Shown here piece by piece: positions 12,627-37,002 of a DNA stretch of 64,000 bases. This DNA is from Candidatus Nitrosocosmicus arcticus (GTDB lineage Archaea > Thermoproteota > Nitrososphaeria > Nitrososphaerales > Nitrososphaeraceae). Below the pieces are notes generated by a model, which saw nothing but the letters and a program-made list of their open reading frames with translations, was not told the origin of the DNA and did not search any database. Position 1 is the stretch's first letter, and each line of letters opens with the position of its first letter. The stretch covers positions 62,001-126,000 of the forward strand of contig NZ_ML675578.1 of the NCBI RefSeq assembly GCF_007826885.1, read 5' to 3'. The position numbers were made by a program, and so were the translations under genes.

Positions 12627-13463
12627 TTAATATTTCAAATCAAGTTTTTTTACATGGTCTATTCCAAATTTCACGGCTGAAAAATAATTTCTATCTGAGA
12701 TTGTGGGTTCAAAACTAATTTTGCCTTTATAATATACTTTTTTTAATGTCTTTATTATTGTATCAAAATCAATGTGACCATATCCAGGCATCTTCCTATT
12801 GTTATCGGCAAAGTGCATGTGAGTGAGACTAGACTGAGATTTTATAATTGTCTCCTCAAAAGAATCTTCTTCAATATTCATATGAAATGTATCTAACATA
12901 AGTTTTAAATCATCACAGCTATCAATCAACCGTATTACATCTGAATAAGTACAACAGTAAGGTGTGGAGTAACGATTGAGTGGCTCTATCATCAAAGACA
13001 CATTTTCTTCTTTTGCATTTTTTAAAAGACGGTTCAACAAAGGCACGCAACTTTCCAAAACTTTGATCCTATTATCTTCCGTAACGTTTCTATGAGTAAC
13101 ATCAAAAGAATAAATAGGATCTGAAAACAAACATAGATTAATACGTTTTCCTCCAAAATAGTTACATAATTTTATGCACTTTAATGTATAATCTTCAGCA
13201 TATTTTAAGAATGATTTATCGTTACTCAGTAGCCGCCTCTTCCACCCATTTGGACTCGACCTACCCCACATCCCAGTGATGCTTATGACCTTTGCCTCAA
13301 ATGAATTTAAAAGATCCTTGAAATATTTCCAGTCTATATCATCGGGTTCTCCAAATAATTCGACTTCAGTTAAGCCTAACTTGCTTAAATTCTCCAACGT
13401 TTCAGCATCGTTTTTTTGTATATTTAAAAATGAAGATAAAGTAATAGAATAAGAAAATATCAT
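12627..13463 (-). CDS. Xylose-isomerase-like TIM-barrel protein (sugar phosphate isomerase/epimerase family)
   Basis: The 278-residue protein matches the AP endonuclease 2/xylose-isomerase-like TIM barrel. Metal-binding positions are visible on successive strands: MIEPLNRYS (Glu), LMLDTFHMNIEE (Asp, His), HMHFADNNRKMPGYGHIDF (His, Asp, and the conserved GxGxIDF) and ISFEPT (Glu). It begins 63 nt after the phosphodiesterase gene on the same strand, which suggests an operon. Together with that gene, the UbiA and TIM-barrel pair at 17.6-19.5 kb and EboB at 36.2 kb it resembles the ebo gene set, where a TIM-barrel protein of this family (EboE) is involved in moving or modifying a metabolite. The substrate is not known. 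Confidence 0.85.
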   Translation of the reverse strand: MIFSYSITLSSFLNIQKNDAETLENLSKLGLTEVELFGEPDDIDWKYFKDLLNSFEAKVISITGMWGRSSPNGWKRRLLSNDKSFLKYAEDYTLKCIKLCNYFGGKRINLCLFSDPIYSFDVTHRNVTEDNRIKVLESCVPLLNRLLKNAKEENVSLMIEPLNRYSTPYCCTYSDVIRLIDSCDDLKLMLDTFHMNIEEDSFEETIIKSQSSLTHMHFADNNRKMPGYGHIDFDTIIKTLKKVYYKGKISFEPTISDRNYFSAVKFGIDHVKKLDLKY

Positions 13464-13526
13464 TTTTACTTTGACTCTTTTTCTCTCTTACAATCCGCGA
13501 ATGTCCAATTTAATTTTCCTATGTTA

Positions 13527-14966
13527 TTAAACAAAGTTATCCCTTACAACGTCAAAAATATCCAAGCAATTTATTACGGGATGCCCGTCAAAATTATCTT
13601 TTCTAATATGTTCAATCTTTTTACTAGACAGAAACGTAGATAATCCTTCACCTGATTCCATATCATATGGTCTTCCATGCGAGCCTTTGATAAGGCGAGT
13701 GTCGGTCGAGATGCACTTTCTTTTTGGATCTATGAACAGATCTAGAGGATCATAACCGGGTTTTCTGTGAATATCTACTGTTCTAGTAAAGCTGGGTGCT
13801 TTGCTATTATCATCAATTCTACCTGCTTCTGGATTAGAGTTTTCTTTGCTTTGGTCACCATACCCCCACCACCAGTAGTAACTAAACCAGCTGTCTTTTT
13901 CCGCAATGGCAATGAGCTCCCCGCTTCTTTCGTGATCAATGTAAAGTTCCTGTTTTTCTTTCTCATCACAAACTTTATCTATTCCAGGAACATTTTCAAG
14001 CACACTCCTTATTTTCGCCTTGTTTTTACTGTTACTGTCCTTTAGATAAATGTGTGCTATCTGATGATCCACCATTGCAAAGGCATCACTATACTCATAA
14101 TCAATATACTCTTTTTCATTTATTGTTCTTACTTGAAGTAATCCATTTTCTCTTAGAATTCTATTTATTGGTATTGCATCTTTAACATCGTTAAATCCGT
14201 ACTCAGACAGAAGGAGAAAATGAGTATCATCAAATATACCTGCTTCCTTAACTTTATCTATTATATTACCAACGCAGTTATCGATTTGCTTTAAATCTTC
14301 GGTCACCTGGGGACTAGATTTACCGAATTTTTGTGCGGTATAATCGAGTTGGGGGAAATAAGCATACATCAAATTTGGACGATGGTTTTTGATAGTGAAT
14401 TGTACTGATTTTGTTATCCATTCAGAGGACTTGATGGATGCAAATGGCCCCCAATAATTCATTAAATTAAATTCGCCCACCTCCTTGCTGATTGTCTCAT
14501 AATAATTTACTGGTTTAGAGTAACACCACATATCCATCTTCCCGTTTTCTAAATGAATAGGACGAGGCGTAACAACATAGTCATTATTTGAATACATCGA
14601 GTTTTGCCAGAATAACATGGCTGTTTTAAGCATACTATTTTTATTTTTTAAAGTATCCCAGATTTTTTCAGACTTGACCAAATTAGTAGATTGCTCCCAG
14701 AATAAAGTCTGCAGGTTTTCTCTATCAAAAAAACCGTTTGAAATAATTCCATGCTCTCTTGGATATTTTCCTGTCAAAATACTTGCTTGGACGGTACTTG
14801 TAACTGATGGGAATACCGGTTTCATATATCCATATTCACCTTCGTTTTGAAACAAGCTGGAGATGTTAGGAAATTTTTGTGATGAAGAATCTAAGTGGGA
14901 AACATCCAATCCCACGATATCTAGAATAATAAAATATTTTGAACTTTTATTATTGTTGTTTGACAA
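13527..14966 (-). CDS. Type I phosphodiesterase/nucleotide pyrophosphatase (alkaline phosphatase superfamily)
   Basis: A 479-residue metal-dependent phosphohydrolase. The N-terminal strand IILDIVGLD supplies the first metal ligand, and FPSVTSTVQASILTGKYPREHGI (about 52-74) carries the nucleophile, probably Thr56, in the family's standard context. Later motifs are YFPQLDYTAQKFG (Asp and related ligands), LLLSEYGFNDV, and KGSHGRP with the late His. No signal peptide is present, so it acts in the cytoplasm. The same family occurs in bacterial ebo clusters, and the TIM-barrel gene follows 63 nt downstream. The natural phosphoester is unknown. Confidence 0.88.
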   Translation of the reverse strand: MSNNNNKSSKYFIILDIVGLDVSHLDSSSQKFPNISSLFQNEGEYGYMKPVFPSVTSTVQASILTGKYPREHGIISNGFFDRENLQTLFWEQSTNLVKSEKIWDTLKNKNSMLKTAMLFWQNSMYSNNDYVVTPRPIHLENGKMDMWCYSKPVNYYETISKEVGEFNLMNYWGPFASIKSSEWITKSVQFTIKNHRPNLMYAYFPQLDYTAQKFGKSSPQVTEDLKQIDNCVGNIIDKVKEAGIFDDTHFLLLSEYGFNDVKDAIPINRILRENGLLQVRTINEKEYIDYEYSDAFAMVDHQIAHIYLKDSNSKNKAKIRSVLENVPGIDKVCDEKEKQELYIDHERSGELIAIAEKDSWFSYYWWWGYGDQSKENSNPEAGRIDDNSKAPSFTRTVDIHRKPGYDPLDLFIDPKRKCISTDTRLIKGSHGRPYDMESGEGLSTFLSSKKIEHIRKDNFDGHPVINCLDIFDVVRDNFV

Positions 14967-15239
14967 GCAAAAGAATCTATTGGCCTTAGTATTTATTAAT
15001 CAATAGACACGCTGTTTAAACAAATTTTGATTAAAGGCAGTATATAATAGGTTCGTTGGCCTAGTACTGTCCACATTACTATTAATTTGGAAAACCAAAA
15101 TAATAGATAGCTACTGGATTTCCGTTTAGTTAATTGCCTATTCCAAAAAAAGAAATAAAGAGATCGACGGACCTAAACAAAAGAAAGAAAAGGAGCCTAC
15201 GGCGTACAGATTCGAAATTAGGTTGTCAATTTAAGCGTA

Positions 15240-15386
15240 TTAATCAATCTTTTGTATTTTCAAAAGTATCTCGCACTTGGGACAACTCAACCCTAAGAAT
15301 TTGAACAGTAGGTCCCCATCCTCAAATTCCTCTGTTATTAATTGACTTAGATTTATTACCTCTTTACAAGATGGACATTTTGCCAT
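15240..15386 (-). CDS. Small zinc-ribbon protein (48 residues)
   Basis: A short frame with ATG at 15384-15386 and TAA at 15240-15242. It encodes MAKCPSCKEV near the start and LSCPKCEILLKI near the end, so two CxxC knuckles are about 31 residues apart, the standard layout of a single zinc ribbon. The middle is acidic (TEEFEDGD). Small proteins of this kind are frequent in Nitrososphaeria and may act in transcription or as amino-group carrier-like proteins; the sequence does not decide this. It lies in an otherwise gene-free stretch. Confidence 0.75.
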   Translation of the reverse strand: MAKCPSCKEVINLSQLITEEFEDGDLLFKFLGLSCPKCEILLKIQKID

Positions 15387-16413
15387 ATGTATGAGATGTT
15401 GTCGGTTCTTATTTAAAATTAGTGAATGATGTTAAAACCACCAACTACCAGCTTCTTGGACAAATATAACATGTTGAATTTTCAATTATCTTTCATACTT
15501 TTTGAATAATACATACTCGGGTATCAAGTTATTTTAGTCCCTGCAGGCTAGACATATTTAGAAAATTACCCACAAAAGGAAATGGTTTTTAGTTAAATGC
15601 ATATTTACTGGGATAAGGTTATTCTTTGTGTCTGGTGAGTATTTTATTTTTTAATGTTAGCCTAATAGATTCTTTATGTATCGGAATCCAATAGAGTGAA
15701 CATACAGAGGGACGATGATGAGCATTCAAGTAAAACTAGTTTTTCTTATCAGCTACTCCATTAAAAAAGATAAAAGAGTTTTGATATCGGCAGCGAATTA
15801 GGTCCATATTTGTTTGTAAACCACATGAATTTGAAATGAAAACTCTTAGTACAATAATTATTTTGGTATGTTTCCCGATATAGTATTGTCTATCTTATCA
15901 TGATAAATAGTAAGTTTTTTTTTTGTTGTAGGTTGAACTTGTATGTTCAGAAAATATGATGGTAGGTGGTATGAAAGTAATAAAGTTATTTGCGGAATTT
16001 AATGTATTAAAATTAAGAGTTTTATTATTGCTTTTGATAATCAAGAAATTGTTTATATTACTGTTAGGTGCACCTAATTTTGCATCTAATAAAGCATTGT
16101 TGTCAAGCAAAAACAAGAACCAAATCCCTTGCTTGATATCCCAATGTCTTACCTGCAAACCAATACACATCTGGAAAATCTGGAAGTTGTTGAAAGGGTT
16201 GGCGGTTGGCGTCACATTATAGCACGATTGGCCTATCGATGGGAAAAGGATGATTTTTTTAATGTCACCCAATTTCCAACTTTCAACAAAACTATCCTAA
16301 TATTAGATTTCATTATCAATTCAGAAAAATCTATTAAATAGAGTCGATCTACACAAGATTAAGGAAAAAAAACCAGGATCATACCTTAATTACTTTTTTG
16401 CATATTTAAAAAT
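15387..16413. other. Intergenic region
   Basis: About 1 kb. Several overlapping frames on both strands between 15898 and 16341 exist, but none has a signal peptide, domain pattern or convincing codon use, and they exclude each other. I see no gene I can support. Confidence 0.4.
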
Positions 16414-16782
16414 ATGAAAGGCTATCAAAAGCTAACTATAATTACTTCTGTTTTGGGACTTATAATTCCGTTTATCGGACTCTTTTTGTATTTTCTGATT
16501 AATAGCTTTATTGGAATTCCAGTATTGGCACTTTTCGTTGGTTGGGCATTACTAATCGCGATAGCTATAATAGCTATAAACGTTGGTGCTATTTTTGCGG
16601 CCTTTAAGTTTAAAAATATGAAAATCGTGGGAGGTATCTTGATAGCATGTGGGGTACTGCTTTTTGCACTCATTCAATGGTTCGCAATACCCGCCTTGGT
16701 ACTATTTGTCATTGCAGGGATAATGGCTTTAAGAGAAAAGAACACGCTTAGTAATCTTAAAGGCGAGAATTTGAAACCCTAG
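16414..16782 (+). CDS. Small membrane protein with four membrane segments
   Basis: The 122-residue protein has four hydrophobic segments (about 8-30, 33-62, 68-84, 86-106) and a short charged C-terminal tail with EKNTLSNLKGEN. The pattern resembles DUF4064-like or similar small integral membrane proteins, with no catalytic motif. The ATG at 16414 is preceded by catatttaaaaat, an A/T-rich element so close that a leaderless transcript is likely if the true TATA box lies a little further upstream. Confidence 0.65.
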   Translation: MKGYQKLTIITSVLGLIIPFIGLFLYFLINSFIGIPVLALFVGWALLIAIAIIAINVGAIFAAFKFKNMKIVGGILIACGVLLFALIQWFAIPALVLFVIAGIMALREKNTLSNLKGENLKP

Positions 16783-16968
16783 TAAAATAGTTTATTATCT
16801 TATGTTTTTTACAGTTTTCGCATAAATTTTTTAGGAAGTATACTAGGAAAATATTTACGGCGCCTATCCCTTTTTAAGATAAACATGGAGATAAAGTAGA
16901 GAATAGTAAATATCTTCAATGTTTTTTTATCTTATCGATTTCGACAAAAAAAACTGACTGAATTTATT

Positions 16969-17520
16969 TCAGTCTTCGCTAAGTTCCTTCTCAGCGTCTT
17001 CACATTCTGACATATTTGCGATACCTGATGACCCCTTCTTTTCACTGCAATTATTTATGTTATAATAATGCATACCGTTATTATCCATCAAGTATTCGCC
17101 TCTTTGTTGAGAATCAGAAAACGTATTATTAGTAAAAACATCATTATTAAAATTCTGGTTTTGAGTATCATTAGTGGAAATTGTCTCCTTTGGAATTGTC
17201 ACCTTGTCTGATCCAGCAACAGGAGAGGATGAGGAATTAGTCTCGATATCACTCTTGGCATTGGAATTGGTACCATTGTTACTGTCAGAATTTTCAGTTA
17301 AATTTGAACCTTTATTGGGGATTATAATTGTAGTAATTGGATTATCTTCAAAATCACTAGCTGAAGAATTTGAAATTGTTGAATTCTTCTCTGGCAGGAA
17401 GGAAGTAGCATAACTGTTTGTTACATCTAATGACCAGTTCATGATGCCTGCTGTTGACACAAGGCAACATACTGTTAGAACTGATGAAAAAGTTATAGAT
17501 TTATTCATAGTAATATACAT
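16969..17520 (-). CDS. Secreted Asn/Ser-rich protein with C-terminal Cys pair
   Basis: The 183-residue product has a signal peptide (about 5-38, core SSVLTVCCLVSTAGI) and a mature region rich in Asn, Ser, Thr and Asp. The last 35 residues differ from the rest and look like a small folded unit: NGMHYYNINNCSEKKGSSG then MSECEDAEKEL, with two Cys that could pair. The Met at residue 5 (17508) is a better start than the first, because it directly precedes the basic residue of the signal peptide. Function is unknown. Confidence 0.65.
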   Translation of the reverse strand: MYITMNKSITFSSVLTVCCLVSTAGIMNWSLDVTNSYATSFLPEKNSTISNSSASDFEDNPITTIIIPNKGSNLTENSDSNNGTNSNAKSDIETNSSSSPVAGSDKVTIPKETISTNDTQNQNFNNDVFTNNTFSDSQQRGEYLMDNNGMHYYNINNCSEKKGSSGIANMSECEDAEKELSED

Positions 17521-17649
17521 TCCGTGAACCTATTTAAAAAAATTTGGAAATAAAGCAGCTTAGTAGAGTTATGCAAGTTTTTTGATTAGTAATTTGTAGA
17601 CGGAAAAAAAGAAATTTAATCTTTCTTTGTCCTATTCCAATTTATCTCT

Positions 17650-18618
17650 TCACGTCATGCTAACCCATTTACCGAGTACTATGCAAGGAATTGCAAGCAA
17701 CGCTACAACAATCCCACTAAAAAATCCGGCTTCCCCAGCGATAAATGCAGAATCTAGAATTATGAGCAGAATTAGCATGTTTTTGACCAGGAATTTAATG
17801 ACTTCCTCGCCTTTGTTATTGTCCATTTTTGAGGCCCTATTAAAAAGTAAATTTATCAAGCACAGAAAGAAAAAGATAAAAATTAAGAAATCCAATTTAT
17901 GTGGGCTTAAAATGATTGCCAATGATAACGAAATAAGTAGAAAGATGAGATATGTGATTTGGATTTTTTGAATATTTAGTGTATTTTTGATTTTTAAGAA
18001 TTCTTGCGTCGTTTCGCTTTTACTAAGGGAAGTTAGGATAAAGATATGAAAATACACCGCGCAGGATGCCAAAGCGAGCAAGAGATAAGAGCTGAAGCCT
18101 GTATTAGGTATCAAAGAGTCTCCATTTTCTAAAGTATTGCTCATCGAAATATCAAATACAAAACTAGCTCCATAAATTACGTTTAACGAGCGGATTCCGG
18201 CCATTAAATATGGTCTGAAAAAGCCATTCTTGATTCTATAATTGTATGCTACTATACCAAACATAAGTAACATTGAGATTCCAAGAGCTGTAGGATTGAC
18301 AAATGCAGCAAGGATTAATCCCAAACTAAACATAATTACAGTAATTAGTAATGCGTTTGTTTTTTTTATTCTGCCTGAGGGCAAAGGTCTGGTGGGTCTT
18401 TCTAGCCTGTCCACTTTGATGTCAAATAGATCATTTAAAACGAGTCCCCCTAGATATAAAAAAACTGAAGAAAAAATCAAGATGACGAGATCGAAAATGC
18501 TATAGCCTACGGATGAGCCAAAGTTAATTGATACTGCCAAAAAACCAACAATTATGTCCGGTGGAATCGTAAAAACATTAGAAATTCTGAAGAGCTTTAG
18601 ATATGGATTTTGAAGCAT
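17650..18618 (-). CDS. UbiA-family prenyltransferase (EboC-like)
   Basis: The 322-residue integral membrane enzyme has about eight to nine membrane segments. NDLFDIKVDRLERPTRPLPSG at about 62-82 is the Mg-binding NDxxDxxxD motif of UbiA prenyltransferases followed by the RPxPSG signature. The second motif region is IRSLNVIYGASFVFD at about 143-157. UbiA enzymes transfer a polyprenyl group to an acceptor inside the membrane. The gene starts 33 nt after the TIM-barrel gene at 18652 on the same strand and is probably co-transcribed. That pairing, not the sequence alone, suggests the EboC type; other archaeal UbiA enzymes, such as digeranylgeranylglyceryl phosphate synthase, remain possible. Confidence 0.85.
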   Translation of the reverse strand: MLQNPYLKLFRISNVFTIPPDIIVGFLAVSINFGSSVGYSIFDLVILIFSSVFLYLGGLVLNDLFDIKVDRLERPTRPLPSGRIKKTNALLITVIMFSLGLILAAFVNPTALGISMLLMFGIVAYNYRIKNGFFRPYLMAGIRSLNVIYGASFVFDISMSNTLENGDSLIPNTGFSSYLLLALASCAVYFHIFILTSLSKSETTQEFLKIKNTLNIQKIQITYLIFLLISLSLAIILSPHKLDFLIFIFFFLCLINLLFNRASKMDNNKGEEVIKFLVKNMLILLIILDSAFIAGEAGFFSGIVVALLAIPCIVLGKWVSMT

Positions 18619-18651
18619 AATCGTTCAGATAGGCCGTCTAATAACCTGAAT

Positions 18652-19470
18652 CTAAATTGAATTAAGATACTTCATCGATATTGAAGCAGCCTCTACCGGG
18701 TTTGTCTTATATGGGTAAAGTTCCACAGTAACATATCCATCATATCCTATTTTATCCATTGTCGCAAGAACTTTTTTAAAATCAATCGATCCGTGTCCAG
18801 GAATTAAATGGTAATGCTTTCTGTTTTTTATATCTGCCATGTGAAAATGTTCTATATACTCTTCAAGCTTAAGAACTAGCATGCTTGGATCCTCGTTAAC
18901 ACAGTAAAAGTGGCCAATGTCAAAATTTAATTTCAAAAATTCAGAATCAAAGTTCTTCATAAAATGCAAAAATTCAACAGAAGATTCGAGTAGTAATTCC
19001 GGTTCTGGTTCAATTAAGATTTTTATTTGTTTTTTTTCAGCTTGAGGAAGGACCTCCCTTATTCCGTTTGCATAAAGTTCCAAATACTTATCCCTGTTAG
19101 AAGGTATCTCCACTGGTCCTCCGGGTTCTATAGAGATATTTTTCGCACCAAGTTTTTCTGCTAGATTAATGCAATCTATTGTATGGTTGATCCTTAAATC
19201 TCGGGCTTCTTTTGTATTTTCTATCCAGGAAGGATGATATGTATCGCCTAACCCAAATAGGGTGAAAGCATTTAGATTTGAAATTTGCATCTTATTATTC
19301 TTTAACGTTTTATTGATTTCCTTAATTTTATCTTCATTCAAATTTGGTGGATATGCATGAGGGACATCGCACATAATCTCAACACCTTCATAGCCTATTT
19401 TGGATATTTCTTCTATTGATTGGATTAAAGGATAATTGGTAAAGGCGTTAGTGCTAAAAGCAAACTTCAT
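18652..19470 (-). CDS. Xylose-isomerase-like TIM-barrel protein (sugar phosphate isomerase/epimerase family)
   Basis: A second 272-residue TIM-barrel paralogue of the gene at 12627. Landmarks in order are YEGVEIMCDVPHAYPP, ISIEPGGP, ILIEPEPELLLES (Glu ligand), LNFDIGHFYCVNEDP (Asp and His), HFHMADIKNRKHYHLIPGHGSIDF and YVTVELYPY (Glu ligand). The complete set of metal ligands is present. It is the first gene of a likely two-gene operon with the UbiA prenyltransferase 33 nt downstream. A role in modifying the product or substrate of that prenyltransferase is suggested by the pairing only. Confidence 0.85.
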   Translation of the reverse strand: MKFAFSTNAFTNYPLIQSIEEISKIGYEGVEIMCDVPHAYPPNLNEDKIKEINKTLKNNKMQISNLNAFTLFGLGDTYHPSWIENTKEARDLRINHTIDCINLAEKLGAKNISIEPGGPVEIPSNRDKYLELYANGIREVLPQAEKKQIKILIEPEPELLLESSVEFLHFMKNFDSEFLKLNFDIGHFYCVNEDPSMLVLKLEEYIEHFHMADIKNRKHYHLIPGHGSIDFKKVLATMDKIGYDGYVTVELYPYKTNPVEAASISMKYLNSI

Positions 19471-19668
19471 AAAAAAAATTATTATCGTTGATTTAAATAG
19501 TTATGTAGTAGTTATTGTAGAGCATCATCTCTGCATAATTAGACGATTTTAGTTTCATAAATTTAGTGCCAGCCTTTATTTAAGATGTAAATCCTCATGA
19601 TTACAAAGGAATCAAATAATTGTTTGAAACTATTTAGGTATCAAAATAGTAAGAAATAGCAAAAAATA

Positions 19669-20847
19669 TTATGATACCACGATACTATGAGGATCTAGAA
19701 ACTGATCATTATTGCTTCCTTTGGATCCCCATTTTGACAAAAATTCACCGTTGCTATCAAATTTTTGAACTCTGAAATTCTGCTGTTCTACCACGTAAAC
19801 ATTTCCTTCAGAATCTACGGCTAAATCATGAGGACTTGCCAATTGTCCATTACCCGGACCTTTGGATCCCCATTTTGACAAAAATTCACCATTGCTATCA
19901 AATTTTTGAATTCGACTGTTACCCGAGTCTGCCACATAAATATTATCATTATTATCAATGTCCAGCCCAGCTGGTTTCTTTAATTGGCCCTCATTTGTAC
20001 CTGTAGTTCCCCATTTGAGGAGAAAGTTACCTTCGCTATCGAATTTTTGAACGTTATTGTTATCAGTATCTGAGACATACATATTATCCAATGAATCTAT
20101 AGCAAGTCCCTCTGGTGCATTGAATTGACCGTCTCCAGTACCCATGGATCCCCATTTGAGGAGAAAGTTACCTTCGCTATCGAATTTTTGAACGTTAAAG
20201 TTAGCCATGTCACTTACGAAGGAGTTACCTTTTGAATCCAATACTATGGTATGAGGATGCATGAATTGACCGTCTCCAGTACCCATGGATCCCCATTTGA
20301 GGAGAAAGTTACCTTCGCTATCGAATTTTTGAACGTTATTGTTGTCCATATCGACTACGTAAACGTCCCCTTTTTTGTTTACATCTATTCCATGGGGTAC
20401 TCCAAACTGACCCTCTGCCTTGCCTTTTGTACCCCATTTTAAGATAAAGTCGCCTTGATTATCAAATTTTTGAACTCGGATATTCTCATAATCTACCACA
20501 TATACTTCTCCATCACCAACGCGCCCATCACCGCCAGCAGTTCCAAGACTACTGGAATTTACAACCGGTGAAATATCATAGTCATTATTAGTAACATGTT
20601 TCTCTAAAGGATTCTGAAACGTTGGTTTTATGATTTCATTAACCTGAGAGTTGACGTCATCATTTATTTCATCAAGTTCTGAAAGCGAGCCTTGCATATT
20701 TGAAGGCATATCAGAATATGGATTGTCAAAGGATAAAGATGGCATTTGGAAATCTGTACTTTGTGCAAAAATCTCATTAAAATTAATCATAATTAAACTT
20801 CCTCCAATAGAGAAGATTAGAAAATATAACGATATCAGATTATTCAT
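19669..20847 (-). CDS. Secreted NHL-repeat beta-propeller protein
   Basis: The 392-residue protein has a signal peptide (about 1-29, ending EIFAQ), a linker of about 75 residues, and six NHL repeats of about 47 residues to the C-terminus. Each repeat contains VQKFDxxGxFLxKWGxxGxxxGQ followed by PHGxxVDxxGNVYVxD, so the domain is one six-bladed propeller. Three central repeats are almost identical at DNA level (a shared block with gatccccatttgaggagaaa recurs near 19.99-20.3 kb), which points to recent internal duplication. NHL propellers bind proteins, RNA or glycans; here the location is outside the membrane and the ligand is unknown. Confidence 0.85.
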   Translation of the reverse strand: MNNLISLYFLIFSIGGSLIMINFNEIFAQSTDFQMPSLSFDNPYSDMPSNMQGSLSELDEINDDVNSQVNEIIKPTFQNPLEKHVTNNDYDISPVVNSSSLGTAGGDGRVGDGEVYVVDYENIRVQKFDNQGDFILKWGTKGKAEGQFGVPHGIDVNKKGDVYVVDMDNNNVQKFDSEGNFLLKWGSMGTGDGQFMHPHTIVLDSKGNSFVSDMANFNVQKFDSEGNFLLKWGSMGTGDGQFNAPEGLAIDSLDNMYVSDTDNNNVQKFDSEGNFLLKWGTTGTNEGQLKKPAGLDIDNNDNIYVADSGNSRIQKFDSNGEFLSKWGSKGPGNGQLASPHDLAVDSEGNVYVVEQQNFRVQKFDSNGEFLSKWGSKGSNNDQFLDPHSIVVS

Positions 20848-25564: not shown

Positions 25565-26572
25565 TTGTTGTTAAATAGATTCGGAAAACAAAAACAATTG
25601 ATATTAGTAATAGTAGCATTAGTAGCTATTACATCCATAGTTCTTCCCCTCAGCACTTTAAGTGCTTCTGGTGACGATGACGATGGCAATTCAGTTAATC
25701 AAGGTATAGGTCAATCACAAAGCAATGACCAAGAAAGCGATGTATCATCTGATGGCGATACAGACAATTCAGGTAATAATGACAGCGATCAAGATCAAAG
25801 TAACTCAGGTGACAATGCAGCAGCCTCGAACAGTGATGATGATGAAGACGACTCAAGCAGTAGCAGGAGTAATAGTAATGATGATGATGAAGACGACTCA
25901 AGCAGTAGCAGGAGTAATAGTAATGATGATGATGAAGACGAAGGCAGTTCAGTTAATCAAGCCATAGGACAATCACAAAGAAATAACCAAGAGAGCAGTG
26001 TGAATTCTGATGGCGACACAACCGATTCAGGTAATAATGACAGCGATCAAGATCAAAGTAACTCAGGTGACAATGCAGCAGTCGTGAACGGTGGCGATGA
26101 ATATGAAGGTTCAGTTAATCAAGCCATAGGACAATCACAGAGAAATAACCAAGAGAGCACTATATCTTCTGATGGCGACACAACTAACTCGGGTAATAAC
26201 AACGCTGTTCAAGAACAAACAAACACTGGTGACAATGCAGCACTCGTGAACGGTGGCGATGAATATGAAGGCTCAATTTTTCAAGGGATAGGACAATCAC
26301 AGGTAAGTAACCAAGAGAGCACTATATCTTCTGATGGCGACACAACTAACTCGGGTAATAACAACGCTGTTCAAGAACAAACAAACACTGGTGACAATGC
26401 AGCACTCGTGAACGGTGGCGCTGGTTTCTTTACTACCCAAGGAATAGCTCAATCACAACTCAATAACCAAGTCAGCAATATAGCATCTGGTGGCGACACA
26501 ACCGATTCAGGCAATAGTTACAGCCGACAATCTCAATCCAACTCAGGAAGTAACGTATTCTCAGGTCAATAG
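25565..26572 (+). CDS. Secreted repeat protein of the curlin-like Gln/Asn/Ser family (member B)
   Basis: The 335-residue product has a signal peptide (about 9-34, core LILVIVALVAITSIVLPL) and then five repeat units of about 50-55 residues. Each unit reads (VNQ)xIGQSQxNxQESxxSSDGDTxxSGNNxxxQxQxNxGDNAA, followed by an acidic loop such as NGGDEYEG. The QxNxGDNAA part resembles the curlin repeat of amyloid fibres. A 45-nt block with gatgatgatgaagacgactc repeats in tandem near 25837-25930, and about 125 nt are duplicated at 26150 and 26309, so expansion is recent. Only TTG starts (25565 or 25568) are available in frame. A T-run at 26605-26613 follows the stop. Confidence 0.8.
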   Translation: MLLNRFGKQKQLILVIVALVAITSIVLPLSTLSASGDDDDGNSVNQGIGQSQSNDQESDVSSDGDTDNSGNNDSDQDQSNSGDNAAASNSDDDEDDSSSSRSNSNDDDEDDSSSSRSNSNDDDEDEGSSVNQAIGQSQRNNQESSVNSDGDTTDSGNNDSDQDQSNSGDNAAVVNGGDEYEGSVNQAIGQSQRNNQESTISSDGDTTNSGNNNAVQEQTNTGDNAALVNGGDEYEGSIFQGIGQSQVSNQESTISSDGDTTNSGNNNAVQEQTNTGDNAALVNGGAGFFTTQGIAQSQLNNQVSNIASGGDTTDSGNSYSRQSQSNSGSNVFSGQ

Positions 26573-27838: not shown

Positions 27839-27850
27839 TTATATTTATAA
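27839..27850 (+). promoter_or_regulatory. Probable TATA box of the C2H2 protein gene
   Basis: ttatatttataa lies 20-31 nt before the ATG at 27870. This is the spacing expected when transcription starts at or next to the start codon, so a leaderless transcript is likely. Confidence 0.5.
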
Positions 27851-27869
27851 CGGATGTATAGTTATTAAT

Positions 27870-28956: not shown

Positions 28957-29018
28957 AGTAAGATTATTTTAGAATCTCGTTAAACAATCCACTTATAGAA
29001 TACTAGGGACATATACTC
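28957..29018 (+). promoter_or_regulatory. Conserved 62-bp upstream module, copy 1
   Basis: The block contains AGTAAGATTATTTTAGAATC, then GTTAAACAATCC and the TATA-like CTTATAGAATAC, followed by the leader CTAGGGACATATACTC, and ends directly before the ATG at 29019. The same arrangement occurs before the genes starting at 59395 and 63696, always 62 nt long. The first part has inverted GATT/AATC halves and could be an operator or enhancer site for a shared regulator. Confidence 0.75.
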
Positions 29019-29276: not shown

Positions 29277-29773
29277 ATAATCATACTATTTTTAAAGGTA
29301 TTGCCACATCCCATTTTTTTGTACGTCTGCGCATAAAATATTCTATTCTACCAAGTTACTATGTTTAATTATTAAAAAATTATAGCCGTTTTGGCTAGGC
29401 ATTGAATGGTATTTGTAAAGACACAAGCCAACCAAGTATATAGTAGAAAGCGAGATTATTTACAGGTTCCGATCATTCAAAACTTTCTATACACTATAAA
29501 AACACCTACAACCTGCCAATTGTATTGCCATTTCTTAATCCAATACTATCTTTCTCGGCCTCCAAACAGCTTATTATCTTTAAAAGAAATCTTAACCCTA
29601 TGCTTTTTTAGTCTACTTTTATTTTAGAGGTGATATTTGTTCCCAGTATTTTTTATAAATGATACCTTTGATTTTGTCGCTCCCTTCCTAATATGCTAAA
29701 TGTTTGAAGACAAGGATTGTATTTAGTATTCCATAATATAAAAGAGGAATTTGTAATGTTTTAGTAAGCTTAT
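29277..29773. other. Intergenic region
   Basis: About 500 nt. A frame at 29406-29627 has no domain, signal peptide or family pattern and is not supported. Confidence 0.4.
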
Positions 29774-30186
29774 TTGCATATGCTAATATACGAAATGTTA
29801 GGATACAACAATGCTACCAGTAAGAACTGGTGTAAAAAGTACTTTAAGAATCACAATGATGACGATGGTGGTAATGGTAACAGAGCATCACAAGGAATCG
29901 GTCAATCACAATCCTCTAGCCAGAATTCACAATGTGTTTCTAATGGCAGCACTAGTGCTTCATGTAACAACATAAGTGTGCAAAACCAACAGAACAGTGG
30001 AAACAGTGCATTGGCACAAGGTGGAATTGGAAAGGGTGGTAACAAAGCTAGTCAAGGAATCGGTCAATCACAATCCTCTAGCCAAAACAGCCAAGTGGTA
30101 TCAGGTGGGAATACCGTACGTCTGGTAATAACATTAACCTCCAAAATCAAGTCAATACAGGCAATAACGCATTAGCACAAAGATAA
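29774..30186 (+). pseudogene. Frameshifted curlin-like family gene (member D)
   Basis: The main frame carries two family repeats: ASQGIGQSQSSSQNSQCVSN, STSASCNNISVQNQQNSGNSALAQ, then again ASQGIGQSQSSSQNSQVVSG. At about 30117-30121 the frame leaves the pattern; the matching end SGNNINLQNQVNTGNNALAQR continues in another frame to the TAA at 30184-30186. One indel therefore cut off the last half-repeat. The N-terminus has no signal peptide (an ATG start gives MHMLIYEMLGYNN), so that end is damaged or replaced too. The repeats are the clearest curlin-like units in the window. The frameshift could instead be a sequencing error. Confidence 0.7.
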
Positions 30187-30776
30187 TACTAAAACCCTAT
30201 TTCTTTTTTTACAAGAGTTAATCCGATTTTGAGAATCTTTTATGATCTTTATCTAAATGCCTAGACAGGCCTCGCATATTTATAAAGAAATATTAGCAAG
30301 AGTAATTCTAACAAATTATGAAATTTTAGTCATAAAGTTCCGAGATAAAACCTTCATCTAATTAAGAATCCGAACGACCAAAAACTATATAGGAAATATA
30401 CGGCATGCTTCGAAATGGGGCTCGATATGAGCAGGTCGTTTACATATACGTCGTTAAGATCTTTTAAAGGTAATGACTACTTACTAAATCCAGTAACTTA
30501 CGAAGTACTAGAAATCATAAATAAGAGATTAAATTTTATGGATTTTTAATTCCACCTCTAACTATGTTTATTTGTTTGAATAATAACTAAAATCAAGCCA
30601 AAATTAAAATAAAAAATTAGTATAATTATATCTAGAACATGTTTGTAAGTTTTGGGTTCTTTCATTCCCAGATGTTGATATTTATATATTTTAAAACAAC
30701 GATTCAAAACAGATCGTTCTTCAAATTACTCGTATTATTTCATAATTAAGAAAAACAGAAATCCACAATTTTGAGC
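30187..30776. other. Intergenic region
   Basis: About 590 nt without a supported gene. A seven-T run at 30204-30210, just after the restored stop of member D, could terminate its transcript. Confidence 0.4.
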
Positions 30777-31256
30777 CTACTCTTTATAATCTAGCACAAA
30801 TTTATCAAATTCTAGAGCAGTTATGAGACAGGCTCTAGCAACTGTATGAACAGCCTGCATAAATAATTCCCGTGTCAGGTTATCGAAAAACAAAGGATAT
30901 ATCAAAGTGAGCCCTATGGAATTACCCTCATTGTTAGTTTGCAATGAACAAAATACTCCCACCTTTAGCAGATCCATTGTCAGTTGGGTTTGAAAATCAT
31001 TAATTACCTCGTCATTCTTATTCTGTAAAATTTTTCCATCTTGAGCTAAAAGACGAGGCCTAGATATGATTTCAATTCTACCTACGTCAGTTTTATAGAT
31101 GTAAATACCAATTTTGAAATCTTCGAAATAACTTGTATTAATAATGGATACCGTATTATCGTCATCTACTGTTTCTTCCACGCTACAAACTGGATCCTTT
31201 TTGAGCCAATTTATTATATTTTCGTAAAGTGAAGTGACATTTCTAATCTCGGACAT
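30777..31256 (-). CDS. Soluble protein of about 160 residues, possibly DUF2299/secretion-chaperone-like
   Basis: The 159-residue protein has no signal peptide or membrane segment. An N-terminal helix (YENIINWLKKD), a five-stranded core (VSIINTSY, KIGIYIYKTDVGRIEIISRP, VGVFCSLQTNNEGNSIGLTLIYPL) and a long C-terminal helix (MQAVHTVARACLITALEFDKF) give the alpha-beta-alpha outline of class I secretion-chaperone-like folds and of the archaeal DUF2299 family. The assignment is by outline only. It is monocistronic. Function is unknown. Confidence 0.6.
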   Translation of the reverse strand: MSEIRNVTSLYENIINWLKKDPVCSVEETVDDDNTVSIINTSYFEDFKIGIYIYKTDVGRIEIISRPRLLAQDGKILQNKNDEVINDFQTQLTMDLLKVGVFCSLQTNNEGNSIGLTLIYPLFFDNLTRELFMQAVHTVARACLITALEFDKFVLDYKE

Positions 31257-31584
31257 TATTATACTATAATATTATACTATATTAATAACTACTGCGGCTT
31301 TTGAAGGTAGTTCGCACTTTGATGCGCTGTTGTTAAACCTGTAACGAACGCGGTTACGATTAAATTCGATAAACCTTAGTTTTCTTTTAGTTCCTTTTCT
31401 GTTGTCCCCTCTTTTAGTTTACTTGATTGGACACCATTTATGATCTGTCGGATTAAGATTAGGAGATTAAACCAACAATATTTTTTATGGCCATTTTCAG
31501 GAAAAAAAATTGAAAAATTGTTCAATCAAAGTCCACAAAAACTAGTAAGATTGATTTTTTATCATCAGGATTTATGGTGTATCT
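31257..31584. other. Intergenic region
   Basis: About 330 nt without a supported gene. A small palindrome, GTAAC at 31341-31345 and GTTAC at 31353-31357, is visible. Confidence 0.4.
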
Positions 31585-31785
31585 CTAGACAATCTTCATT
31601 TCATGAAGCCTAGGAGTAAATAGATCTGTAATATTTCTGTTTTGATGCACCATATACAGCAAAGGTAGATAAGCAAGTATTGTTATGCATAGTCCAATAT
31701 TTATGAAATATACCTCAAAAACTTTTACTGTGACAGTCTCCGCGACACTGCTCTTTACAATTGTCACACTAAATATAAGTAGCAT
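31585..31785 (-). CDS. Possible small membrane protein
   Basis: The 66-residue frame encodes two moderately hydrophobic segments (VYFINIGLCITILAYLPLLYM in the middle is the stronger) and a basic C-terminal tail. There is no family pattern and it lies beside a decayed gene, so it may not be real. Confidence 0.3.
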   Translation of the reverse strand: MLLIFSVTIVKSSVAETVTVKVFEVYFINIGLCITILAYLPLLYMVHQNRNITDLFTPRLHEMKIV

Positions 31786-31878
31786 ATAATCTCAATGAGA
31801 TAATTCTACGTTTGATCGGGATTCCTTTTTTTCATGATTAGCTAATTCTACCTCCGATTCCTATCTAGTATTTTTAAC

Positions 31879-32455
31879 CTTCCAGATGTAACCGGAACTT
31901 ATACCAATACGGATACCGGTCATAAAATTACTTTTCCCTCTAATTGGACTGGAAAGCAAATATCATTTGTCCAAGATTTGGTAGTGGTTAGTCCCTAGGT
32001 TATTGATGTGGAATCAAAAGTAGAACCTGAAGCTACAATGATGGTAAACACAATTACCCAAGAATATAATGATATGATCAGAAACAATGGGATTAAATTT
32101 TTCTAATAAATCTGATGAGCGGCTTGTTTAACCAAACAGATAACCCCTTTGAACAAGATAATGAATCATGCCGACCACGATCAGCATCTTCTATGGTAAC
32201 CATAACGGTGCAATAGCAGAAGAATATGTGTATAATTGTACAATTGGTGGATCAGCTTATACTAAGGCATACGCTTTTGCAACATCAGATGATATTCTAA
32301 TCGTTATAGCTTTTACAGGAGATCCGACCACTTTTGACAGATACTCACCAGAATTCGAAAACTCCGTGAAAACTGGAGAAATCTCAAACCCAATAGATAT
32401 TACCAAATGTGAATCATATAGTATTATAAAGAGAACGGTAGAAGGTTTTGGATGA
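31879..32455 (+). pseudogene. Decayed PsbP/DUF1795-like secreted protein gene
   Basis: The first frame gives TYTNTDTGHKITFPSNWTGK, the typical start of PsbP-like and DUF1795-like domains (Tyr, then Gly-x-x-x-x-x-Pro-x-x-Trp), then runs through an in-frame TAG near 31996 into KVEPEATMMVNTITQEYNDM and stops at about 32105. The C-terminal part continues in another frame at 32168-32455 with AEEYVYNCTIGGSAYTKAY and IVIAFTGDP, which fits the later strands of the same domain. A stop and a frameshift thus separate two halves of one gene, and the signal peptide is not visible. Confidence 0.65.
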
Positions 32456-32861
32456 TGATTCTTTCTCGATGTGTGACTTTTGGCAGAATAGATATGATAA
32501 TTAACAAACTATCGATTGTAGATTGAAATCAATTATACTAAGAGCTACCTCAATGGTAAATTTTTATTCAATTTAGATGCTATCCACAAGAAGAACATCC
32601 AATTTTACTTTTTATCTTCTAATTCCCATCTTTTTCTTCTACCTAAGTAATGTGATTGACTCTAATTCAAAAGAACTCAGAGTAATCCCGTCGTGTAAAT
32701 CTGATCTCTAATAGATCACAAACCCGCTATGATCTATGATTCAAATCTTTGGGAGTCTTAGTTTGGAACACTCTGGATGTTGAACATTAATTTTATCAGA
32801 TTGTTGTACAAAATGCAGCAATTCACTGGTTGGGACTGATGCAATAATAAATTCTTTTGTA
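32456..32861. other. Intergenic region
   Basis: About 400 nt without a supported gene, between the decayed secreted-protein gene and the end of the polysaccharide genes. Confidence 0.4.
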
Positions 32862-33746
32862 TCATGGCTCCGCATCTCTATCTTTTATCATCTGAGAATA
32901 CCTATCGATTGTCAATTTTAATCCTTCATTTATGTCAATAGTGGGACTCCACTCGAACTTTTTCATTACTTTACCTATATCTGCAACCATTTCGACCACA
33001 TCGTTTGGCCTGAAAGAAGAATTATACTCTATAGATATTTTTTTATTAATAATTGACTCGATAACTCTTAAAATATCCTCTAAATTATAGCTTTTCCCGT
33101 AGCCCACATTATACACGTTATAGCCTTCTGGAAAATTGAGTAAAATTTTATGAACAAGGTTAACAAAATCATCAACAAAGAGAAAATCTCTACGGGTATT
33201 TTTTTTACTTAAAATTACCTTTTCATTGTTCATAACTTTTCTGATGGCGGATGAAATAAAAGAAGAATTGTGTGACGGGCCATAAATATAAAAGGGTCTT
33301 AATGTTACTATATTTAGTTTATAATCCTCAGAGTAATACTTACATAATTTTTCTGAAATCAATTTACTTTTATTGTAAGGCGAATGCGGACATAGTGGAT
33401 GGTTTTCATCGATAGGAATGTATTTAGGGTTTCCATAAGTATAGGTGCTGATATTAATAATATTCTTAATTTTTCTTTTTATAGCGTAATCTAAAATATT
33501 AAGTGTACCAACTATATTAGTATAATAAGTGTCATACGGATTTGAAATGGAATCTAGGATAGAAGTCTTAGATGCCAAGTGAATCACTGTATCTACTTCG
33601 TCAATATCTAGAAGTTGACTTTTTTCTAAAACATTAATTCGTCGTCCATTATTTTTATTAGTTGTAAGGACTGTATAGTTACTTTGTAATTTTTTAACTA
33701 AGCTAGTCCCTATGAATCCTGTATGGCCAGTTACTAATATCTTCAA
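32862..33746 (-). CDS. NAD-dependent epimerase/dehydratase (sugar nucleotide, SDR family)
   Basis: A 294-residue extended short-chain dehydrogenase. GHTGFIGTSLVKKL at 7-20 is the NAD-binding GxxGxxG loop, VIHLASKTS the fourth strand, NIINISTYTYG the catalytic Ser/Thr strand and YNKSK at about 129-133 the catalytic Tyr and Lys. LRPFYIYGPSHN and RRDFLFVDDFVNLV are the standard later motifs. Such enzymes act on UDP-, GDP- or dTDP-sugars. The gene follows the second SDR gene by 33 nt on the same strand, so both belong to one operon. The exact sugar is not decided by sequence. Confidence 0.88.
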   Translation of the reverse strand: MKILVTGHTGFIGTSLVKKLQSNYTVLTTNKNNGRRINVLEKSQLLDIDEVDTVIHLASKTSILDSISNPYDTYYTNIVGTLNILDYAIKRKIKNIINISTYTYGNPKYIPIDENHPLCPHSPYNKSKLISEKLCKYYSEDYKLNIVTLRPFYIYGPSHNSSFISSAIRKVMNNEKVILSKKNTRRDFLFVDDFVNLVHKILLNFPEGYNVYNVGYGKSYNLEDILRVIESIINKKISIEYNSSFRPNDVVEMVADIGKVMKKFEWSPTIDINEGLKLTIDRYSQMIKDRDAEP

Positions 33747-33779
33747 TATGGTCTCATTTTATCCCGTATGATTGTTTCA

Positions 33780-34742
33780 CTAATACAGCCATAACTCAGA
33801 TTTATAATTCCTATACCAATCCATTAGTAACGAAATACCCTGCTCAAACTCAATTTTAGGAACAAAATCCAATGATTTCTGCGCTTTGGATATATCTGCA
33901 AATAATCTTTGAACTTCAGTAGGACGAGCGTCAACGTGAATAGTACTTAATTTTTTTTCATTACCAGAATATTTCAATATCAATTCTGCAATCTCGTTCA
34001 CTGATTTTTCGGTTCCAGTGCCAAAATTAATCCCATATTTACCTGGGTTGTCATTTGATTTCAAAACTTTATCATAAGCATTAACCGCATCGTCAACATA
34101 CATATAATCTCTTGTTTGATTTCCATCACCATATATTATAGGTGGTTTATTCTGCAGCACTCTATTTATGAAAATAGCAATAACACCACCATATCCTGAG
34201 TCCTTTTGTCTGGGTCCATAGAAATTGAAACATCTTATTATATCTATTCCTAAATCGTATGTTTCATTATAAGTATAACATAATCTATCTGCCGCGATCT
34301 TACTCACTCCATAAGGGTGTTGCGCGGCCAACGGATGATCTTCGTCCATAGGAACGTACTTTGCTGATCCGTACACCTCACTTGTTGAAGCAAAAAGGAT
34401 TTTGTTGATATCATTCATACGTGCATATTCTAAAATTTTCATTGTCCCCGATACGTTTATGTCAAAGGTTTCTTCGGGATTTACAATGGAGCGATCAACG
34501 TGGATTTGAGCCGCCAGATGTATTACAGCATCTAGATCGTTTGGAATTTTGCTGTACAAATCCCTGTTTCGAATATCGTCGTGAATAAACTTGAAGTTTT
34601 TTCTATGTAATAAAGTTCGAACATTGTTCAGGTTTCCGTTTAGTAAATTATCTATTCCGTAAACTATATGATCTTCATTTACGTATTTCTCCGACAGATG
34701 GCTACCTAAGAATCCCGCAGCCCCAGTTATCATTATCTTCAT
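33780..34742 (-). CDS. NAD-dependent epimerase/dehydratase (UDP-sugar epimerase or decarboxylase type)
   Basis: A 320-residue extended SDR enzyme. GAAGFLGSHL at 7-16 binds NAD, VIHLAAQIHVDRSIVNP is the next cofactor segment, FASTSEVYG gives the catalytic Thr/Ser region and YGVSK at about 146-150 the catalytic Tyr and Lys. RCFNFYGPRQ and GDGNQTRDYMYVDDAV are complete. The pattern is nearest to UDP-glucose/UDP-GlcNAc 4-epimerases and UDP-glucuronate decarboxylases. It is the first gene of the pair with 32862. It should supply a sugar nucleotide to the glycosyltransferases encoded at 38.8-52.7 kb. Confidence 0.88.
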   Translation of the reverse strand: MKIMITGAAGFLGSHLSEKYVNEDHIVYGIDNLLNGNLNNVRTLLHRKNFKFIHDDIRNRDLYSKIPNDLDAVIHLAAQIHVDRSIVNPEETFDINVSGTMKILEYARMNDINKILFASTSEVYGSAKYVPMDEDHPLAAQHPYGVSKIAADRLCYTYNETYDLGIDIIRCFNFYGPRQKDSGYGGVIAIFINRVLQNKPPIIYGDGNQTRDYMYVDDAVNAYDKVLKSNDNPGKYGINFGTGTEKSVNEIAELILKYSGNEKKLSTIHVDARPTEVQRLFADISKAQKSLDFVPKIEFEQGISLLMDWYRNYKSELWLY

Positions 34743-34903
34743 AAGGCAATATAGCCGAGAGCTGTTCTATGAAGTTTTTTATTTTATAAATCGATATGTT
34801 CAAACGGAATTTGTGATATTAAAGATCTGTCACAAAAGCAAAACTCTATTCGATAAAATTAAACACTATTTCATTAAACATCGTATTTCTTATTACTAGA
34901 ACA

Positions 34904-35053
34904 ATGACAATGAGTTGTAATACATCTTGTATTATGATATCTGAAACATGTTTTGAAAGTTTAAAATTAGTCGTAAGAAGGGAGGACTCAACAGTCGAAC
35001 ATCAAGCCTGGAAAGATAATCTAATCCGCTCTCAGCAGAGTGGTTTGCACTAA
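34904..35053 (+). CDS. Possible 49-residue protein
   Basis: An open frame with ATG 34904 and TAA 35051-35053 encodes a short product with three Cys in the first half (MTMSCNTSCIM, ETCF) and a charged second half (LVVRREDSTVEHQAW). It overlaps the 3' end of the dehydrogenase gene on the other strand by 4 nt. No family is recognised. The rest of 34743-34903 holds nothing I can name. Confidence 0.3.
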   Translation: MTMSCNTSCIMISETCFESLKLVVRREDSTVEHQAWKDNLIRSQQSGLH

Positions 35054-36126
35054 AAATCATTAATAATTGACTTTATCCCAATGAAGGATTCTGATGTATT
35101 GAAAGCCTCTTTTATTTTATCAATAGAATAGGTATTACTAATTAAACTGTGCAAATCAATTTCCCTGGAATCTACAAGGTCCATAGCTTCTTTCAAGTTG
35201 ACTGGATTCGAGCTAAAACTTCCGCTAATTGATACTTGATTATAATGAAGAAAGTTAGGATCTATATTAATTGAAGAAGATTTTTTTTGATGGTATAATT
35301 TATTTTTAAAACCAGAGAATAAAATTATCCTTCCGTTCTTATTTACTAATTTAAGAGCAGATTTTATACACCCTGGGTTGTTATTTGATATGAAAATCAA
35401 ATTAGGCGAAAATCTACCATTAATTTCTTTAATTTGATTTAAACCGTTACTTAACTCTGAATCATCATCAGATAAAATTACTAAATCGGCTCCAAGTTTC
35501 TTAGCAGTTTCCAACCTGTGTTTAATCTTTCCAATCATCGTTACGCTAATTTTTAGAAATCTTTTTAACAACATGAGCTGCATTAATCCAATAGGGCCAT
35601 CTCCAAATATAATAGCAGATTCAAACTCCATATCCTTAACTTGGTTTACACTATTAATACAACAAGCCAATGGCTCAATTAGTGATGCCTCTTCGTTTGT
35701 AATATTATCTGATACAGGGATGATACCGCCGATTTCAAACACCTTTTTTGGAATTGCGATATACTCAGCAAATCCACCATTTATTGTAGAGCCCACTTCT
35801 TTCAAATTATTGCACAGGTTGAATTTTCTCTTATGACAATACCAGCACTCAAGACAGGGGATTACAGGATAAATTGACACTCTCGTTTGAGGTTTTAGAT
35901 ATAAATTACTGCTTTTATATTCCTCCACCAACTCTGCGCAAATTTCATGTCCTAATATTACGGGGGGAGTGACCTTGAAATTTCCATTTCTATAGGTCCT
36001 AACATCGTAACTACAAACAGAGCAGGATAGTACTCTTAAAAGATTCATATCGTTTTTGCACGCTTCATTAAAGTCTAAATTTTCTAACCTAATATCATTT
36101 GGCCCATAATAAACTGCAGCGTTCAT
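35050..36126 (-). CDS. Zinc-dependent alcohol/polyol dehydrogenase (MDR family)
   Basis: A 358-residue medium-chain dehydrogenase. SCSVCSYDVRTY at about 35-46 carries the catalytic-zinc Cys, GHEICAELVEEY at about 60-71 the second ligand region, and CLECWYCHKRKFNLC at about 95-109 the four structural-zinc Cys. The Rossmann domain has AIIFGDGPIGLMQ, with the GxGxxG loop altered to GDGPIG, the form often seen in threonine and sorbitol dehydrogenase-like enzymes. AAGGAGA lies 4-11 nt before the ATG, one of the few clear Shine-Dalgarno sequences here. It is divergent from the eboB-like gene with 66 nt between. The substrate is likely a polyol or sugar alcohol. Confidence 0.88.
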   Translation of the reverse strand: MNAAVYYGPNDIRLENLDFNEACKNDMNLLRVLSCSVCSYDVRTYRNGNFKVTPPVILGHEICAELVEEYKSSNLYLKPQTRVSIYPVIPCLECWYCHKRKFNLCNNLKEVGSTINGGFAEYIAIPKKVFEIGGIIPVSDNITNEEASLIEPLACCINSVNQVKDMEFESAIIFGDGPIGLMQLMLLKRFLKISVTMIGKIKHRLETAKKLGADLVILSDDDSELSNGLNQIKEINGRFSPNLIFISNNNPGCIKSALKLVNKNGRIILFSGFKNKLYHQKKSSSINIDPNFLHYNQVSISGSFSSNPVNLKEAMDLVDSREIDLHSLISNTYSIDKIKEAFNTSESFIGIKSIINDF

Positions 36127-36129
36127 TCT

Positions 36130-36137
36130 TTCTCCTT
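36130..36137 (-). promoter_or_regulatory. Ribosome binding site of the zinc dehydrogenase gene
   Basis: AAGGAGA on the minus strand, spaced about 4 nt from the ATG at 36126-36124. It supports that start. Confidence 0.65.
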
Positions 36138-36192
36138 TTTATATATTAGAGGCGTTATAATTATTATATACAATTTCTAATTAAGATTTTAT

Positions 36193-37002
36193 ATGAGTAG
36201 ATTTTTTGATCCCCACATCCACACTTACTCTCGAACGACTGATGATTACGAAAGGATGTCTATCGCGGGAATAGAAGTCATTGTTCAACCATCTTTTTGG
36301 CTGGGTTCCCCACGTACATCTGTAGGAACTTTTGTGGATTATTGGGAACATCTGATTTCCTATGAGACAAAAAGAGCAAAAGAATTCGGAGTAGAACATT
36401 TTGTCTGTGTTTCGGTAAACCCAAAAGAATCGGTTGTCAGACCGTTGGCAATTGAAGCACTTGAAGTGATGAGGGAGAAAGGATTCATAAACAGAGAAAG
36501 GGTTGTGGCAATCGGTGAAATAGGTTATAATTTAATAAATGATTTAGAAGAAGAGATTTTCATAAGGCAACTAGAGATATGCCGGAAAGAAAAACTATTA
36601 GCATTAATTCATCTACCACACCAAAACAAACGAGAGGGCATGAGTAGAATGGAAAGAATTTTTCAAGAAAATAAATATGATCTCAACAAAATATTGATTG
36701 ATCACAATACTGAGGAAACCATAAAAAAAACACTAGATATGGGTGCCTGGGCAGGCATATCCGTCTACCCTGTTACAAAATTATCTCCGGATAGAGTTAT
36801 CAAAATTGTCGATAATTACGGAAGTGATAAAATAATGATCAATAGTGCAGCAGATTGGGGTATTTCTGACCCACTTAGCGTCCCCCTAACCGCAAGGGAA
36901 ATGAGGAAGAATGGTTCTAAATATGAGGACATTGAAAAAATTACATTTTCGAATGCTTATGAATTTTTTAAACAATCTGATAAATTTACATGGAGACCGT
37001 GA
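36193..37002 (+). CDS. eboB: TatD-like metal-dependent hydrolase, EboB type
   Basis: The 269-residue TIM-barrel hydrolase starts DPHIHTYSRTTDDYERMSIAG, whose HxH at residues 8 and 10 binds metal. The following PSFWLGSPRTSVGTFVDYW is, from memory, specific for the EboB branch of TatD-like proteins. AIGEIGYN (Glu), ALIHLPHQNKRE (His), ILIDHNTEET (His) and INSAADWGISDPLSVP (Asp) complete the metal site. In bacteria EboB is encoded with EboA, C, D, E and F in a cluster linked to export or processing of secondary metabolites. Here the gene stands alone, 66 nt from a divergent dehydrogenase, while other ebo-like genes are 17-24 kb away. Confidence 0.85.
   Translation: MSRFFDPHIHTYSRTTDDYERMSIAGIEVIVQPSFWLGSPRTSVGTFVDYWEHLISYETKRAKEFGVEHFVCVSVNPKESVVRPLAIEALEVMREKGFINRERVVAIGEIGYNLINDLEEEIFIRQLEICRKEKLLALIHLPHQNKREGMSRMERIFQENKYDLNKILIDHNTEETIKKTLDMGAWAGISVYPVTKLSPDRVIKIVDNYGSDKIMINSAADWGISDPLSVPLTAREMRKNGSKYEDIEKITFSNAYEFFKQSDKFTWRP

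Follow-up and report, generated by a model that had tools for sequence, protein, structure and literature searches.

The ebo genes were described in bacteria as the operon eboABCDEF (PMC5133447). In Nostoc, each of the ebo genes tested is required for export of the scytonemin monomer, which builds up in the cytoplasm of ebo mutants (PMC6282210), and UbiA-297, which belongs to the EboC group, transfers farnesyl to quinoline acids in vitro (PMC9235831). A stretch of 64,000 nucleotides from the genome of Candidatus Nitrosocosmicus arcticus (contig NZ_ML675578.1, positions 62,001 to 126,000; hereafter the window) carries six genes that very probably represent an archaeal variant of this system, consisting of EboB, EboC, EboF, two TIM barrels (TIM1 and TIM2), and a zinc-dependent dehydrogenase (ADH), without EboA, EboD, and EboE (Table 1). 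Because the same six genes are found side by side in related archaea, they would constitute an undescribed archaeal form of the ebo pathway. The host genome comprises 2,644,860 bases in 22 contigs, with a completeness of 98.28%. In the window, the set is spread over 24 kb in three units, TIM2-EboF, EboC-TIM1, and ADH-EboB, with internal gaps of 63, 33, and 66 bp, respectively. The TatD, UbiA, phosphodiesterase, and two TIM-barrel genes named in an initial annotation were all recovered by Pfam matches where it had placed them, and the ADH gene, which is divergent from EboB and accompanies the set in relatives, had been overlooked.

Table 1. The six genes of the archaeal ebo-type set in the window.
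Gene	Assignment	Position	Strand	Domain or model match
TIM2	xylose-isomerase-like TIM barrel, ketose 3-epimerase/IolO-like	12627..13463	-	PF01261, 99.6 bits
EboF	EboF orthologue, type I phosphodiesterase family	13527..14966	-	PF01663, 216 bits
EboC	EboC orthologue, UbiA-family prenyltransferase	17650..18618	-	UbiA Pfam, 66.6 bits; top NCBIfam model NF035940, 144 bits
TIM1	short xylose-isomerase-like TIM barrel	18652..19470	-	PF01261, 142 bits
ADH	zinc-dependent MDR dehydrogenase, sorbitol/scyllo-inosose dehydrogenase-like	35050..36126	-	PF08240 and PF00107
EboB	EboB orthologue, TatD-like metal hydrolase	36193..37002	+	PF01026, 53.7 bits

A phylogenetic tree of UbiA-family proteins was built from the EboC sequences of 12 ammonia-oxidising archaea (AOA), four haloarchaea, and five bacteria, together with SCO3242, and 12 other archaeal UbiA proteins. 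The AOA, haloarchaeal, and bacterial EboC proteins and SCO3242 grouped into one clade (99/98), and all 12 of the lipid- or quinone-type archaeal proteins fell outside it. The second Asp motif of the lipid-type UbiA proteins (REVVK...DVEGD, of the RExxKxxxDVxGD kind) is lost throughout the EboC clade, the window protein included, and a T-x-x-[AS]-[KR]-x-E-like stretch is common to the clade, both features being read by eye from the alignment. The tree and the missing second motif rule out that the window protein is an archaeal DGGGP synthase or a quinone or haem enzyme. The window EboB shares an amino acid identity of 36–46% with bacterial EboB, formed a clade with seven of these (100/100) against three other archaeal TatD proteins, and belongs to a group in which the metal ligands H10, E109, H140, H171, and D221 are invariant. 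EboB-like TatD proteins in distant families of the phylum lack ebo genes in their vicinity (about 1.5 kb) and were counted as other TatD. The window EboF is 36–39% identical to bacterial EboF over 80–91% of the query and carries the private motifs SEYG, DHQxAH, DIHxKPGxDP, and GSHG, as do all EboF proteins; the EboF tree was calculated without an outgroup. By these trees, motifs, and identities, and by the clustering described below, the genes for the TatD, UbiA, and phosphodiesterase proteins represent orthologues of EboB, EboC, and EboF and not mere family members.

Alternatively, the six genes could be unrelated members of large families (a TatD nuclease, a lipid prenyltransferase, sugar isomerases, and a phosphodiesterase) that share the window by chance. 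All of the folds involved are very common, and the curated NCBIfam cut-offs for EboC (NF035940) and EboE (NF035939), both 250 bits, are unreached. The EboC cut-off is not decisive for membership, however, since proteins from undoubted ebo operons also miss it, and those of Mycetohabitans (113 bits), Deinococcus (107 bits), and Azospirillum (89 bits) score still lower on the same model than the window EboC. The EboC and EboB clades are likewise at odds with a chance grouping, and so are the contiguous and collinear arrangement of the genes in relatives and their identical pattern of presence. Taken as a whole, this explanation is extremely improbable, and the clustering of the genes in relatives already refutes it.

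The arrangement in relatives is as follows. Loci L055 and L056 carry an unbroken block of divergent ADH and EboB-TIM1-EboC-EboF-TIM2, with a shorter TIM2 reading frame in L056, and in L057 the run EboB-TIM1-EboC-EboF-TIM2, without ADH, lies at the end of a contig. Loci L060, L061, and L062 show the order TIM0-EboB-TIM1-EboC-EboF with a different zinc dehydrogenase, only 24–27% identical to the window ADH, convergent at the far end. Contiguous blocks are also present in Nitrososphaerales archaeon TH703 (L089) and Thaumarchaeota REEA70 (L090). Within the host genus (L063–L066), the gene order is kept and the genes are spaced over 12–18 kb where measurable, the ADH-EboB pair of the window being inverted relative to L066, and in another genome (G082) the set forms two units about 90 kb apart. 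In each cluster that is contiguous, EboC is flanked by TIM1 and EboF; ADH is the divergent neighbour of EboB in L055, L056, and L063–L067, and TIM2 directly follows EboF in L055–L058, L063, L064, and L066. The three units of the window are the contiguous block of these relatives, opened by insertions. The initial description of the set as dispersed thus holds for the window, the host genus, and one other genome, whereas the set is contiguous elsewhere. A second divergent ADH-EboB pair occurs in the host genome (L067, 8444-10527; G000:C6:10444-12527), with an EboB of 67% identity and none of the other set genes beside it.

Among 120 genomes of the class Nitrososphaeria, strong EboB matches (within the order) and strong EboF matches were found in the identical 12 genomes (Fisher test, p ~1e-16, with phylogeny ignored), and EboC was found alongside EboB and EboF in carrier genomes. 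The UbiA protein groups with bacterial EboC and co-occurs with EboB, contrary to the outcome that the initial annotation had named as telling against its proposal, namely a grouping with archaeal lipid or quinone enzymes and no co-occurrence with EboB. The distribution is patchy, covering eight of the nine sampled genomes of the host family and four genomes of a second family, drawn from three genera. The EboB of one genome of the second family (G079) is 67% identical to the window EboB, almost as near as the host family's own members, an observation that points to horizontal transfer.

The AOA set is not the six-gene ebo operon, which is ruled out because EboA, EboD, and EboE are missing. In model searches of 12 AOA genomes including the host, EboA (NF035938) was not found and EboD (PF01761) gave nothing above cut-off, while four bacterial controls were positive for EboA and strong for EboD; a search elsewhere in the genome for these two genes, as proposed in the initial annotation, thus recovered neither in the host or its 11 relatives. 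EboE, a TIM barrel of about 390 residues, was not found among the window TIM barrels, TIM1 reaching 33 bits on NF035939 and TIM2 giving no match. No small gene lies between EboB and EboC in L055–L057 and L060–L062, EboG not having been searched by model. The initial assignment to the ebo families hence stands for EboB, EboC, and EboF and falls for the full set.

Compared with bacterial eboABCDEF, the AOA set shares orthologous EboB, EboC, and EboF, a sugar-acting TIM barrel, and a contiguous order in most related archaea. It differs in lacking EboA, EboD, and EboE, in adding TIM2 and the zinc dehydrogenase, and in its scattering over the window. The actinobacterial SCO3242-type cluster (L078 and L188; MIPS-SCO3242-TIM-EboA-EboB-EboE-EboF, where MIPS is inositol-3-phosphate synthase) likewise has an EboC-clade prenyltransferase, EboB, EboF, and a short, TIM1-type barrel. 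However, MIPS, EboA, and EboE belong to the actinobacterial cluster and none of them to the AOA cluster, which adds TIM2 and ADH. Beside the Streptomyces MIPS-type cluster of L188, a ScyD/ScyE-family protein is encoded (3082-4281), that is, outside cyanobacteria. Clusters on haloarchaeal plasmids (L073, L074, L075, and L082) share with the AOA set the order EboB-TIM1-EboC, a nearby EboF, and the lack of EboA, EboD, and EboE. In contrast to the AOA set, MIPS adjoins EboF in three of these four, the second TIM barrel is a TIM1 paralogue (TIMb) and not TIM2, no zinc dehydrogenase was found, and the haloarchaeal proteins form a separate branch in all three trees. These compact EboB-TIM-EboC-TIM clusters of haloarchaeal megaplasmids are apparently undescribed.

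A comparison of 104 ebo-type loci, in which Bacteroidota and Streptomyces are over-represented, many are near copies, and several are ended by contig edges, separated two kinds of cluster. EboD is carried by 57 loci (55 with EboE and 54 with EboA), none of which has TIM1, and MIPS by seven (three actinobacterial, three haloarchaeal, and one deltaproteobacterial), all with TIM1; no locus carries both EboD and MIPS. Plasmid searches agree: MIPS adjoins EboB in Streptomyces, Embleya, Nonomuraea, and haloarchaea, and EboD adjoins EboB in Mycetohabitans, Ketogulonicigenium, Salipiger, Deinococcus, Azospirillum, Gloeothece, and Aureibacter. The deltaproteobacterial locus (L107), from a metagenome-assembled genome, has MIPS-TIM1-EboB-EboC without EboA, a content near the haloarchaeal type. 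All AOA clusters contain TIM1 and no cyclase, and judged from gene content the AOA set can be assigned to this second ebo branch marked by TIM1. Most simply read, the cyclitols supplied by EboD and by MIPS would be equivalent. A tentative extension, on the doubtful side, would recognise two chemical branches, one of EboD and the other an inositol branch marked by TIM1, the latter being used by archaea for a prenylated, inositol-derived membrane cofactor unknown in archaea.

The TIM barrels and the dehydrogenase bear on the chemistry of the set. TIM1 is 38–43% identical to the TIM barrel located between EboB and EboC in haloarchaea. TIM2 matches the NCBIfam model IolO at 131 bits, below cut-off, and its nearest solved structures are TM_0416 and D-tagatose 3-epimerases, while those of ADH include ketose reductase and sorbitol dehydrogenase. 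Metal ligands are retained in TIM1 and TIM2, and the zinc ligands of ADH are invariant among nine homologues. Since the TIM barrels and the dehydrogenase score best on polyol or inositol enzymes (IolM, IolO, and D-psicose epimerase), the set could be a catabolic inositol or polyol pathway (IolM/IolO/IolE-like) to which the prenyltransferase and TatD protein were attached secondarily. Such a pathway is quite improbable, as EboC is embedded in every contiguous cluster, EboB, EboC, and EboF stay constant across lineages while their TIM and dehydrogenase partners change, and the AOA blocks contained no recognisable transporter for sugars or inositol.

For the archaeal ebo variant, a route from a cyclitol to a prenylated molecule is a serious possibility, though somewhat short of even. 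The pathway would start from an inositol-like cyclitol (a cyclitol phosphate), possibly derived from the housekeeping MIPS of the cell, whose ring the zinc dehydrogenase would oxidise. TIM1 and TIM2 would then epimerise, isomerise, or dehydrate the oxidised cyclitol, EboC would attach a polyprenyl chain, and EboB and EboF would trim or process the product at unspecified points. The outcome may be a prenylated molecule, either a cyclitol or an aromatic, that is bound to the membrane and acts as a carrier or cofactor in moving or oxidising a metabolite at the cell surface, a role proposed by analogy with the bacterial ebo genes, on which export of the scytonemin monomer depends. That the two archaeal families carry zinc dehydrogenases which differ from one another suggests that the dehydrogenase step is required.

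Several observations weigh against this chemistry. The TIM and dehydrogenase assignments are at the family level, all under curated cut-offs, and the AOA cluster itself contains no cyclase. MIPS occurs elsewhere in all 12 AOA carrier genomes, in the host as a single copy (G000:C1:356084) outside the cluster and about 230 kb from the window; however, it is found in 118 of the 120 class genomes, with or without the cluster, so its presence is permissive only and was rejected as support for the AOA pathway. In a phmmer alignment of EboF to ENPP2, V18, Q212, E254, and Y255 replace the metal ligands Asp, His, Asp, and His, and the nucleophile position T56 and D208 are kept, these positions being assigned from what we take to be the catalytic roles of the ENPP2 residues. 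The loss of the four ligands agrees across 21 archaeal and bacterial EboF sequences wherever the region is present, which makes a classical two-metal phosphodiesterase reaction by EboF doubtful in any lineage. The identity of the gene set and the proposed chemistry, taken together as a single statement, are about evenly poised between right and wrong.

The lost EboF ligands are also consistent with a membrane assembly that exports another metabolite, following the Nostoc translocation model, and has no biosynthetic pathway of its own. The retention of scytonemin monomer in the cytoplasm of Nostoc ebo mutants speaks for such an assembly (PMC6282210). This is nevertheless unlikely, since EboA, its proposed organiser, is absent here, EboB, TIM1, TIM2, and the dehydrogenase retain their metal ligands, and UbiA-297, of the EboC type, is a functional prenyltransferase (PMC9235831).

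Among the neighbouring genes, an NHL beta-propeller protein with an export-signal-like start is encoded directly upstream of TIM1-EboC (19669-20847, minus strand) and adjoins TIM1 in four of five genomes of the genus. Its top NCBIfam model is ScyF (240 bits against a cut-off of 350), and as a ScyF equivalent it was dropped; its link to ebo is not specific because the host genome contains many other NHL matches, some of them better. Low-complexity, repeat-rich, secreted-looking proteins with SQSNNQES-type repeats are encoded between the halves of the gene set (25565-26572 and 29774-30175). Farther along the window, an open reading frame at 57837-58697 resembles the start of a subtilase-like protease, ends soon after the DTG motif, and is possibly truncated.

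To our knowledge, the product of the bacterial ebo genes is unknown after a decade. Because EboD and MIPS are mutually exclusive and archaea dispense with EboA, EboD, and EboE, the conserved ebo core shrinks to EboB, EboC, EboF, and a TIM barrel, and a cyclitol is suggested as the starting compound, so that the product becomes testable by labelling and lipidomics. In the open-licence literature, papers using the term ebo deal with bacteria, algae, and scytonemin, and no text describing ebo genes in archaea was found; in the Yurchenko paper, the word archaea is confined to an enumeration of the roles of UbiA and to a colour label. The terms TatD, UbiA, and prenyltransferase were not found in the open-licence genome papers examined on Nitrosocosmicus and Thaumarchaeota, including that on N. 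arcticus. The ebo system would thus extend to ammonia-oxidising archaea and haloarchaea, for which that literature yielded no earlier description.

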